DNA from: an uncultured Ardenticatenia bacterium
GTDB lineage: Bacteria; Chloroflexota; Anaerolineae; 4572-78; NAK82
DNA length: 64,000 nucleotides
Reading direction: 5' to 3'
Assembly (NCBI GenBank): GCA_937127125.1
Contig: CAKZLO010000035.1
Location: 1 to 64,000, forward strand
The notes under the pieces were generated by a model. That model did not search any database, was not told where the DNA came from, and was given only the letters and a program-made list of their open reading frames with translations. The translations under genes and the position numbers were made by a program. How positions within the stretch are numbered: position 1 is the stretch's first letter; each line of letters starts with the position of its first letter. Positions 35,068-39,592 of this stretch are shown piece by piece.

Positions 35068-36464
35068 TGGCCGAGGAGTTCTTCATCCCCAAGCTGGGGC
35101 AAACGGTTGAAGAAGTCACCATACTGGGTTGGAAGGTGGAAGACGGCCAGCGCGTGGAGCAGGGCGAAACCGTGCTGGAAGTGGAAACCGACAAAGCAGT
35201 TTTCCCGGTAGAGGCAAACGCTTCAGGCTACATTCATCTGGGGCCCTACAAAGCGGGTGATGTGGTGCCTGTGCTCACCGTGGTAGCCGTTATCGGCAAG
35301 AAGGACGACAAATTCGAGGTGAAAGGTGCACCAGCGGCTGAGCCTGAAGCAGCTGCCGCCACACCTACGGCAGCTGCGATGGCTGAGGTCGTTGCCGAAG
35401 GTGCTGTTCCGGCGGCTACACCGGAAGGCAAGGTATTCGCCTCACCGCGCGCCCGTCGTCTGGCAGCAGAGGAAGGGGTGGATCTGCGCCTAGTCAAGCC
35501 CACCGGTGGAGGGGGTGTGCGCGTCGCCGAGCGCGACGTGCTGGCCTATCTGAGCGCAATGCCCAAAGCGACTCCTGTGGCGCAGAAGATGGCCGCCGAA
35601 GCCGGCATCGATTTGCATCAGGTGGTTGGGACAGGGCCTGGTGGCAAGATCACCCGGGAGGACGTGGAACGTGCCATCCAGGCAGCCGCCGTCGCACCGG
35701 CCCCGGCAGCGCCGGCCCCGGCTGTGGCACCGGCGCCGGCTGCGCCCGTCGTCCCGCTGCCTGAGGTCGAGGTGTTGGAACGCATCCCGCTCAAAGGTGT
35801 GCGTGCCATCATCGCCCAGCGCATGGCCACCAGTGTCCACACCACGGCGCGCGTGACGTTGGTCAGCGAGGTAGATGCCACCCACTTCGTAGAGATGCGC
35901 GAACGGCTCAAGCAGCAAGTATCCGAGGAGTGGGGATTTGCTCCTGGTTACAACGATCTGCTGGCCAAGATCGTCGCCAATGCGCTGCGCAAGTATCCCT
36001 ACATGAACGCTCGCCTGACCGAGGACGCCGTCGAACTGCTGGCGCACGTCAACATCGGCATTGCTGTGGACACCGAACGCGGCCTGCTGGTGCCGGTGGT
36101 GCGCGACGTGGATCGCAAGAGCTTGCGCCAGTTTGGTGAAGAGTTGCGGCAACTGATCGAGCGTGCGCGTACTGGTCGCGCTCTTCCCGACGACCTGACC
36201 GGTGGCACCTTTACCATCACCAACCTAGGCCCCTACGACATCGATGCCTTCACGCCAGTGATCAACCTGCCCGAGGCGGCCATCCTGGGTGTCGGTCGCA
36301 TCGCACCCAAGGTAGTGGTGCGTGACGGCGCCATGGTCATTCGTCAGATGGTCACCCTCAGCCTGGCGTTCGATCATCGTCTGGTGGACGGTGCGCCCGC
36401 AGCACGCTTCCTGCAGTATATCAAGCAGCTGATCGAAGAACCCTATTTGTTGGTGACCTTGTAG
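35067..36464 (+). CDS. 2-oxoacid dehydrogenase E2 with two tandem E3-binding domains
   Basis: 465 aa from the ATG at 35067, overlapping the E1 stop by one base. The lipoyl domain has the modified Lys in ETDKAVF. Two peripheral-subunit-binding-like domains follow back to back: one beginning ASPRARRLAAEEGVDL, one beginning TPVAQKMAAEAGIDL, joined without a long linker. A Pro/Ala-rich linker and the acyltransferase domain come next, with FDHRLVDGAPAARF as the active-site block. Standard bacterial E2 has one such binding domain. An excellent terminator lies 43 nt downstream. Confidence 0.93.
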   Translation: MAEEFFIPKLGQTVEEVTILGWKVEDGQRVEQGETVLEVETDKAVFPVEANASGYIHLGPYKAGDVVPVLTVVAVIGKKDDKFEVKGAPAAEPEAAAATPTAAAMAEVVAEGAVPAATPEGKVFASPRARRLAAEEGVDLRLVKPTGGGGVRVAERDVLAYLSAMPKATPVAQKMAAEAGIDLHQVVGTGPGGKITREDVERAIQAAAVAPAPAAPAPAVAPAPAAPVVPLPEVEVLERIPLKGVRAIIAQRMATSVHTTARVTLVSEVDATHFVEMRERLKQQVSEEWGFAPGYNDLLAKIVANALRKYPYMNARLTEDAVELLAHVNIGIAVDTERGLLVPVVRDVDRKSLRQFGEELRQLIERARTGRALPDDLTGGTFTITNLGPYDIDAFTPVINLPEAAILGVGRIAPKVVVRDGAMVIRQMVTLSLAFDHRLVDGAPAARFLQYIKQLIEEPYLLVTL

Positions 36465-36506
36465 ACGGGGAAGGCCATCAAACCCAAAGTCAATCAGAGT
36501 AGATAG

Positions 36507-36548
36507 ATGCCAGGGTGAGGAGAAAATCCTCGCATCCTGGCATTTTTG
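36507..36548 (+). terminator. Rho-independent terminator after E2
   Basis: A long hairpin (ATGCCAGG pairing with CCTGGCAT, inner GTGAGGA with TCCTCGC, loop GAAAA, small AT bulge) is followed by TTTTTG. It ends the E1-E2 operon. Confidence 0.9.
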
Positions 36549-36618
36549 TATCTTAAGTTTTGCCAAAAGATACCCGAAGAAACTCGTAAAGAACGGGCAA
36601 AATTTTAAGGTTTTGGTA

Positions 36619-36647
36619 TTGACTCCTTGCCCAAATTATGCTATAGT
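36619..36647 (+). promoter_or_regulatory. Promoter of the structured RNA
   Basis: TTGACT (36619-36624), exactly 17 nt, TATAGT (36642-36647). The predicted start near 36653 coincides with the first base of the closing helix of the RNA. Confidence 0.8.
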
Positions 36648-36652
36648 AAAAA

Positions 36653-36900
36653 TGGAGAGGGTTCCAAGGAATCGGACAGGTCATAGAAGCACCAGTTCCG
36701 GATCGAACCCCAAAAATCAATCTTATTGCAGTGGTGTCTGGAAACAGATGCCAGCTGCAAGTCGGCAGAAACACGGGAATACCGTGGAAAGCCGCCTTCT
36801 GAAGCGTAGCGATACGGCTTCAGGAGTAGATTGAGGGGCCAAGTATCCAGGAGGGTGGTTCAAGATCTGAAAGGTTAATTGGGGCTCTCTCCACTTTTTT
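36653..36900 (+). ncRNA. Unidentified structured non-coding RNA of about 247 nt
   Basis: It has its own promoter and ends in a T-run (36895-36900). The 5' GGAGAG (36654-36659) pairs with 3' CTCTCC (36887-36892). A central helix (CCCC and CAATCT at 36708-36723 with AGATTG and GGGG at 36828-36838) closes three hairpins. These are 36726-36760 (6+9 bp, GAAA loop), 36763-36794 (CGGC/GCCG and CACGG/CCGTG with an A-rich internal loop) and 36799-36823 (7+3 bp, GCGA loop). No reading frame or downstream plus-strand gene fits a leader. I could not match it to RNase P, SRP, 6S or tmRNA hallmarks. Its 3' end is antisense to the hpt stop. Confidence 0.75.
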
Positions 36901-37456
36901 CCCTCATTTTCGGACGCTCAAATTGGACCAGGTAGGGCAGGTTGCGGTAGCGCTCGCGATAATCCAGCCCATAACCTACCAAATACACGTCCGGCACCTC
37001 GAAACCCACATACGCCAGATCAATGTCCACGATGCGCCGGGCAGGCCTGTTCAGCAACACGCACACGCGTAAGCTGGCCGGACCGTGATGGCGCAAAATG
37101 CCCAAGATGTAATGGCTGGTCAAGCCTGTATCAATAATATCTTCCACAAACAACACATGACGGCCGCTGAGCGGTTCGGTCAGGTCTTTGGTCAGACGCA
37201 CCACGCCGCGCACCTGCTCCGTGCGACCGTAGCGGGCAATGTCAAGAAAGTCCATTGTCACCGGCATATGGATAGCGCGCACCAAATCGGTGATGAAGAA
37301 TATAACTCCCTTCAAAACCCCCACGGTAACCAGGTCCAATCCAGCGTAGTCACGCGTGATCTGGGCACCCAGCTCTGCGACGCGACGTTGGATCTGCTCC
37401 TGAGTCAGAAAAACAGGACCAATGTCATCCGCCCAACCTACATATGCCTCACTCAT
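36875..37456 (-). CDS. hpt: Hypoxanthine phosphoribosyltransferase
   Basis: 193 aa, normal length. It salvages hypoxanthine or guanine with PRPP to form IMP or GMP. The PRPP-binding motif VLFVEDIIDTGLT is near residue 100, an upstream GVLKGVIFF flexible-loop region is present, and YVGFEVPDVYLVGYGLDYRE near the C-terminus matches bacterial Hpt. It follows holA by 54 nt on the same strand. Its last 26 nt overlap, on the opposite strand, the 3' end of the structured RNA. Confidence 0.93.
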   Translation of the reverse strand: MSEAYVGWADDIGPVFLTQEQIQRRVAELGAQITRDYAGLDLVTVGVLKGVIFFITDLVRAIHMPVTMDFLDIARYGRTEQVRGVVRLTKDLTEPLSGRHVLFVEDIIDTGLTSHYILGILRHHGPASLRVCVLLNRPARRIVDIDLAYVGFEVPDVYLVGYGLDYRERYRNLPYLVQFERPKMREKSGESPN

Positions 37457-37510
37457 TCGCCGCTTCCCACACTGCGATGTCTCCGGGTACGAACCATAGC
37501 TTGCTGCTCT

Positions 37511-38518
37511 CTACACATCTTGCGGCCCGCATAAGGCCGCCACCAGCGTGTCCAAGGCCAACACATCGTCGATCTTGCCGGTTTTGATTGCCAGATCAGT
37601 GCTGAGCAACCGTGCATAAATTATCTCCATCTGTGCCATCGAGAAGTTTATCGCTTGCTGACGAGCCTTCTCCGCCGCAAACTCCTGGATGCCAATCTGC
37701 TTCGCGATTGTTGAAATGGCCAGACCCTGAGCTATCATCTCCTTGACCTGAATCAGGATGCGAAACTGGCGCACAATCATACCCAGCAACATGAGGGGAC
37801 GATTCTCACTGGGATCTTCGTCCAGCAAGCGGTGCAGGTGTTGCAGGGCCAGGCGTGCATCGCGCTGGCCAATCGCATCTACCATGGTCCAGATCTTCGC
37901 TACACCAGTGTATGGCACGAGCATGTCAACAAGCTCGCGTGTGATATTGGGGCGAACGCCCCCCACATATGTGATTAGCTTTTCAATTTCGGAGTCGAGC
38001 GTGCGCATGTCGTGGCCGACCGCTGTCGCCAGTGCCATGGCCGCGGAAGACTCAATCGTGGCCCCCTTATGCTGCACCCGCCGGACAATCCATTCTGCCA
38101 ACTCCTGATCGCGGACGGGCACGCTGAACAGGCGCACCTGGCCCTGCGGGTGCTTTCCTGCCAGCACCAGGATGGGATGCTTCCCCGGCAATACCTCGTC
38201 CTCGGTGAAAACCAGCTGGGTGGTAGCCGGCAGATGAGGCAGATAATCGGCCAATGCCTCTATGGCGGCAGCATCTCCGGGACCCCTGTCCTGTTCTGGC
38301 CCGATGCGCGATAGATAGTTCTTCACCACCACCAGACGACTGCTGGCCAGAAACGGCAGAACGTCACAGGCTTGTTGAATCTGGACTACATTCGTGTTCT
38401 GGCCATCCAGATAGGTGGTGTTGAGTTCGGCCAGGGACGCCTCACCCAGTTGGGACTTCATCTCGGCCAGGACTTCCGAGCGCGTGAGCTCGTCTGGCCC
38501 GTGGAAGACGTAAAACAT
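37511..38518 (-). CDS. holA: DNA polymerase III delta subunit
   Basis: 335 aa from the ATG at 38518, the usual HolA length; the open frame up to 38587 overlaps the previous gene. The N-terminus FYVFHGPDELTRSEVLAEMK matches the delta P-loop-like start of clamp-loader subunits. SSRLVVVKNYL, VTAVGHDMRTLDSEIEKL-type and the C-terminal helical domain with LMLLGMIVRQFRILIQ are typical. Delta opens the beta sliding clamp. It follows the upstream gene after 4 nt. Confidence 0.9.
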   Translation of the reverse strand: MFYVFHGPDELTRSEVLAEMKSQLGEASLAELNTTYLDGQNTNVVQIQQACDVLPFLASSRLVVVKNYLSRIGPEQDRGPGDAAAIEALADYLPHLPATTQLVFTEDEVLPGKHPILVLAGKHPQGQVRLFSVPVRDQELAEWIVRRVQHKGATIESSAAMALATAVGHDMRTLDSEIEKLITYVGGVRPNITRELVDMLVPYTGVAKIWTMVDAIGQRDARLALQHLHRLLDEDPSENRPLMLLGMIVRQFRILIQVKEMIAQGLAISTIAKQIGIQEFAAEKARQQAINFSMAQMEIIYARLLSTDLAIKTGKIDDVLALDTLVAALCGPQDV

Positions 38519-39160: not shown

Positions 39161-39171
39161 CCCCCTGCAAG

Positions 39172-39592
39172 TGGAGATGCCGGGAATCGAACCCGGGTCC
39201 AGAGAAGCCCGACACGAACGTCTACAAGCTTAGTCGGCGCCAGGTCTCTCGCCCGCCGCCTCGTCCGCCGACCGAGTCGACGGCGGGCCAGCCGATGGGC
39301 GAGGCTCTCGCCTCCTTTGACACGCGTATCGGCGTCTGCGTGTCGCAACCCGGACTGCGCGTCGCCCTGACACCCCCGCCCGGATCGAGGGATGTAGGAC
39401 GTGACCACTACATGCGAGTGGTCATTTGCATCGGCCTACGCCGGCTTACGCAGCGAGCGGAAGCGCGTTGTAGGCAGGTGCGTTGAAAGCAGGTACTTTC
39501 TCGGCACTTATGGTTTTGCCCGATTTAACGAGGTCAGGCGTCTCGGCTTGCAGTCCGTGCCCAGTCCTTCCCTGTCGAAACCTTTCATCCCC
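39172..39592 (-). ncRNA. ssrA: Transfer-messenger RNA
   Basis: One-piece tmRNA of about 421 nt that rescues stalled ribosomes. The acceptor stem GGGGATG (39592-39586) pairs with CATCTCC before discriminator A at 39172; CCA is not encoded. The T arm CCGGGTTCGATTCCCGG and the 5' AAAGGTTTCGACAGGG are canonical. The tag frame is read from GCC at 39505 to TAA ending at 39446 and gives AEKVPAFNAPAYNALPLAA. This is long (19 residues) and ends in LPLAA instead of the usual ALAA. A promoter lies upstream and a terminator downstream. Confidence 0.95.

Follow-up and report, generated by a model that had tools for sequence, protein, structure and literature searches.

A stand-alone structured RNA with a constant terminal domain represents an RNA family of Chloroflexota absent from Rfam

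Introduction

Few stand-alone structured RNAs persist across much of a phylum, and several of those that do run core processes, among them RNase P RNA, tmRNA, SRP RNA and 6S RNA. Ms1 of Actinobacteria, which binds RNA polymerase, was traced through synteny and structure rather than through sequence (PMC9130861). Chloroflexi-1, which came out of a 2010 survey, is an Rfam family (PMC2864571). Here we describe an RNA encoded in the 64,000-nt stretch of DNA that was analysed (the window), to which the Chloroflexi-1 model gives no match. It represents a new family absent from Rfam; the function of this family may yet prove to be of a known kind.

Results

A reading of the window made from the sequence only had proposed a non-coding RNA of no recognised type, multi-branched and with its own promoter. 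Our analysis bears this out: a promoter (TTGACT-17-TATAGT, 36619-36647, plus strand) lies directly upstream, the RNA is predicted to fold far more stably than shuffled sequences, its helices covary, and both promoter and T-run recur in homologues (Table 1). The predicted fold of positions 36650-36900 has a free energy of -119.2 kcal/mol (z -9.6). In comparison, 200 dinucleotide shuffles gave -72.3 +/- 4.9 kcal/mol, and not one of them matched its stability. In this fold a long closing rod leads to a central helix and three hairpins that together make a four-way junction; these are the helices that the sequence-only reading had listed, with one GAAA loop and one GCGA loop. Also as proposed there, the window has no plus-strand gene after the RNA. 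The neighbour is the convergent purine-salvage gene hpt, whose stop codon falls within the 3′ strand of the RNA, giving an overlap of about 25 nt with the hpt 3′ end. Upstream of the RNA, behind the end of a dihydrolipoamide acyltransferase-like gene, a strong hairpin (ATGCCAGG..CCTGGCAT) with a T-run at 36508-36546 is a likely terminator.

Table 1. Features of the RNA gene and its neighbour (window coordinates)
Feature	Position	Strand	Basis
-35 box TTGACT	36619-36624	+	window sequence; homologues have TTGACA equally far upstream
-10 box TATAGT	36642-36647	+	17-bp spacer from the -35 box
Non-coding RNA, about 245 nt, predicted ends	36653-36900	+	fold z -9.6; R2 match 36653-36894
Closing helix P1, 5′ strand, GGGUUCCAAG conserved in family	36653-36667	+	fold and covariation
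Closing helix P1, pairing	36653-36667/36879-36893	+	predicted fold
P2 AAUC and GGAC, the 5′ side of the tandem G.A internal loop	36670-36677	+	terminal-domain comparison
Central helix, 5′ strand UCAAUCU, closes the four-way junction	36717-36723	+	fold; covariation; family helix 79-83/291-295 of A8
Junction hairpin 1, GAAA loop	36726-36760	+	fold; compensatory changes within genus
Junction hairpin 2, purine internal loop AGAAA/GAAA	36761-36795	+	pairs invariant in genus; corresponds to family hairpin CUGGUGGAAA..GGGAAACCAG
Junction hairpin 3, GCGA loop	36795-36826	+	fold; genus comparison
Central helix, 3′ strand AGAUUGA	36828-36834	+	predicted fold
Terminal domain, 3′ strand: tandem G.A side, P2 (GGUU), P1	36869-36893	+	fold and terminal-motif comparison
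T-run after P1, intrinsic terminator	36895-36900	+	sequence; recurs in homologues
hpt, convergent neighbour, syntenic marker outside the RNA	36875-37456	-	gene call, synteny

Searching the window with cmscan against Rfam 15 returned only a tmRNA (39169-39592, minus strand) and one tRNA. Between 36400 and 37100 there was no plausible family match at E <= 10, the only matches being implausible eukaryotic ones on the opposite strand. A 95-nt tRNA-His with anticodon ATG that ARAGORN calls at 37474-37568 (minus strand) has no Rfam match and is probably false. The four classes that the earlier reading had set aside are all encoded elsewhere in the genome. The models for RNase P RNA (RF00010) and SRP RNA (RF00169) do not match the new RNA, and the genome's own copies lie at C76:884-1310 (E 5.1e-30) and, for a small SRP RNA, at C34:329977-330076. 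6S RNA (RF00013) gave no match in 36400-37100 at E <= 10, and a separate 6S RNA scoring above the Rfam cut-off (61 bits) is present at C44:8079-8260. The combination of a tmRNA model match (RF00023), a tRNA-like domain and a tag frame was not found here; the tmRNA gene is the one on the minus strand noted above. Homologues of the new RNA behaved likewise: seven homologue loci gave only low-score matches below gathering at E <= 5, twenty member loci gave only tRNAs at the gathering score, and three distant loci gave no convincing match. Coding was rejected as well, the mechanical open reading frames being disrupted by stops and by an indel between close homologues. We found no description of this RNA in the main text of openly searchable papers.

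Two genomes of the same genus carry the RNA at 83-87% identity, with promoter and RNA kept and upstream flanks diverged, and the three genus sequences already show two-sided changes at seven pairs. A degenerate pattern run over about 85,000 genomes picked up just these two genus members (an Ardenticatenia MAG and an Anaerolineae MAG) and one Klebsiella record. In the latter (L068, a contig titled Klebsiella pneumoniae MAG) the hairpin pattern was matched near the contig end, and chance or a contaminating contig is possible. The proposal that GAACC/GGTTC might compete with the CCCC/GGGG helix, as a switch or pseudoknot, is not supported by this comparison: in both same-genus homologues GAACC has become GAGCC and the 3′ GGTTC is lost.

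R1, a junction/top-domain model built from the three genus members, gave no match beyond the genus in 396 class genomes. The flanks of hpt in related genomes, from other genera, yielded six diverged homologues. Each of these is convergent with hpt and has a TTGACA-type promoter. From these six hpt-linked homologues only, excluding the window genus, we built the covariance model R2, which recovered the window RNA at full length (36653-36894, E 1.9e-18). Since the window genus was absent from training, this match is an independent test of homology. The window lineage is without the fourth hairpin of the family, and its interior aligns poorly to R2.

R2 matched 45 of the 396 class genomes, the weakest of these matches not having been checked individually. 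In a phylum-wide draw it matched three further families of the phylum: f62 (E 4.6e-18), f116 (E 4.5e-4) and f98 (E 2.6e-9 and 1.9e-7). The f98 matches come from two genomes of 1.4-1.6 Mb and are RNAs of 166-172 nt with a promoter, one of them with a six-T run; the f116 member has the ends CCCCAAGUAGUC...AGGUUACUUGGGG and a TTGACA promoter. Several further members were located only beside hpt, and this distribution is a lower bound because whole-genome searches miss members. R3, a model of the terminal-domain hairpin, fails to bridge the large interior; since it recovers its own members poorly, its phylum search is uninformative on absence. Some R3 matches are probably a different RNA that precedes a pfkA-like gene. 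At L167, L169, L172 and L173 (Chloroflexota families f96/f103) a promoter is followed by a region of about 330-400 nt with a terminal hairpin (GCCCCGAGRAGCUGAGUAGG..GGAAGCGAAAGGUUACUCGGGGC) resembling the terminal motif of the family; in some of these the region directly precedes a 6-phosphofructokinase-like gene. This is probably a separate leader RNA.

A DNA search of plasmids gave no match. Two motif scans of viral contigs in IMG/VR gave one match to the 3′ motif and 72 to the 5′ motif, none with both halves, and a phage origin is not supported. Tandem copies of the RNA occur in two genomes, G112 and G052, where two copies lie head to tail beside hpt (G112:C146:33480-34016 and G052:C235:6100-6642). 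G057 carries two separate copies (C131:4696-4987 and C13:11348-11632) on contigs other than that of its best hpt hit. As judged by sequence comparison, the RNA occurs across many Chloroflexota families and is vertically inherited.

Across members it is the terminal domain that stays constant (5′ AGCYCC-RAG-R-AAUU-GGAA-RGC / 3′ GCY-RGAA-GGUU-A-CUU-GGRGCU), while the interior is lineage-specific and overall lengths span 166 to about 420 nt. The GGAA/RGAA loop forms a symmetric G.A/A.G run; among 33 sequences its successive oppositions are G.A (23 sequences), G.A (30), A.G (23) and A.G (11). Within the terminal domain 12 of the 21 pairs show two-sided changes, a count reached by none of 500 shuffles, and slid partners perform far worse. 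Over the full length, a MAFFT-only alignment of the six homologues has two-sided covariation at 25 of 63 pairs (0/500 shuffles). The compensatory changes anticipated for related genomes are also found in a larger set, in which 54 of 63 pairs change on both sides among 17 members (0/500 shuffles) and 92.9% of cells are paired, versus 71.8% in shuffles and 34-51% with slid partners; this alignment was fitted to the model and is thus biased toward the structure. The median fold z over 24 members is -5.7. On a two-piece descriptor of the terminal motif the window, itself among the 33 training rows, scores 66.8 at a single site in the 64 kb; on a similar score, the highest value among shuffles of other loci is 35.5.

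A sequence that varies while structure and synteny are conserved, together with the size of the RNA, its strong promoter and its long closing helix, would fit a regulator that binds RNA polymerase: a second 6S-like RNA, or an Ms1-like one, that mimics or blocks a promoter. This is the best of the rival explanations, and we still consider it unlikely. A 6S RNA above the Rfam cut-off is encoded separately, none is detected here at E <= 10, and the predicted fold is multi-branched rather than a rod with a single central open bubble.

Of 51 members, 55% have a near-consensus sigma-70 promoter (at least 9 of 12 positions) where the 5′ end is predicted, versus 6% of shuffles, and T-runs of at least four follow most members. 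In many members without a promoter at the 5′ end, one that resembles TTGACA-17-TATACT lies about 37-53 nt further upstream, with an extra 5′ hairpin in between. Such a hairpin (e.g. CCUGGAGG..CCAAAAGG), about 50 nt upstream of P1, is seen at L084-L098, L107, L147, L158 and similar loci.

We sought hpt in 249 class genomes and examined 61 hpt flanks, of which 22 outscored all 305 shuffled sequences on the two-piece descriptor; about 13 of these 22 had contributed to the descriptor, L137 and L140 being among those that had not. The RNA is often, but not always, convergent with hpt, and many members adjoin other genes. Antisense overlap between the RNA 3′ end and the hpt stop, described in the earlier reading, is present in the window but not conserved in homologues: several are separated from hpt, some by a bidirectional terminator. 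Convergent transcription could in principle make the RNA a cis-acting antisense RNA or a transcription barrier that sets the 3′ end or level of hpt, and the recurrent convergent placement and the overlap of about 25 nt in the window speak for it. Cis-antisense control is nevertheless improbable, given the lack of conservation of the overlap and the many members that adjoin genes other than hpt; moreover, such action would need no long-range covariation within the RNA itself. The idea of a riboswitch or a leader acting on a downstream gene, for which multi-hairpin folds would be typical, is very hard to reconcile with a T-run that ends the transcript, with the absence of a following plus-strand gene in the window and with the convergent neighbour in hpt-linked members.

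Discussion

Taken together, the sequence comparisons establish a conserved RNA with a well-supported predicted fold and its own promoter and terminator signals. We consider it fairly probable that it is an independently transcribed structural RNA that acts in trans as a scaffold and belongs to a new Chloroflexota non-coding RNA family. The sequence evidence shows a sigma-70-type promoter, a predicted 5′ end that coincides with the closing helix, and a terminator T-run. It also shows that the terminal helix holds a conserved purine mismatch and the tandem G.A loop GGAA/RGAA, which is symmetric, and that the interior is a junction with lineage-specific hairpins. We infer that a conserved protein binds the constant terminal helix, or that this helix is an element of tertiary structure; the RNA would then be the scaffold on which a small ribonucleoprotein is built, and its variable interior would provide lineage-specific contacts. 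Members are placed freely relative to genes, hpt being a frequent convergent neighbour, and the RNA would act in trans rather than in cis on hpt. A scaffold role is suggested, by analogy, because a constant terminal helix is combined with a variable interior, and a ribonucleoprotein assembled on the terminal helix would be the most likely mechanism.

A terminal stem that stays constant while the interior varies is also what would be expected of a Ro/Y-RNA-like chaperone cofactor, with a TROVE protein on the constant stem and variable loops. We regard this as highly improbable: of the 38 genomes tested, TROVE (PF05731) turned up in just 3, and no match came from any of the nine f1/f3 carriers that were searched or from genome G000. 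Ro itself is thereby largely refuted as the partner for most carriers; a different protein could play that part.

Returning to the trans-acting scaffold, a broader version of it is possible, if rather doubtful: the RNA may be a housekeeping-like, phylum-level RNA that arose early in Chloroflexota, its inside having been remodelled while the G.A-rich terminal helix stayed constant. It would have either a protein partner of its own or a catalytic role, of a kind not known from any other bacteria. The recognisable terminal domain and the use of hpt as a genomic marker make the RNA directly testable in cultivated Chloroflexota.

Collectively, the new RNA resembles several described systems in part. 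It is a housekeeping-like, stand-alone structural RNA in the manner of bacterial RNase P RNA, SRP RNA and tmRNA; unlike the case with these three, all of which are found elsewhere in the genome, no model matches at this locus. Like the Y RNAs bound by Ro it combines a constant terminal helix with a variable interior, but it is larger, has no model match and occurs in carriers that, for the most part, tested without Ro. With the ornate RNAs OLE, ROOL, GOLLD and raiA, whose roles are unknown or partly known, it has in common that it is stand-alone and structured with conserved junctions; it differs in having no Rfam match at E <= 10 and no viral copies in the two IMG/VR motif scans. From 6S and Ms1 RNA it is set apart by a multi-branched junction in place of a rod that opens into a central bubble, by the lack of an Rfam match and by the presence of a separate 6S RNA, yet it shares with them a size of about 200-300 nt, its own sigma-70-type promoter, a closing helix, a sequence that varies more than the structure, and partly conserved synteny.
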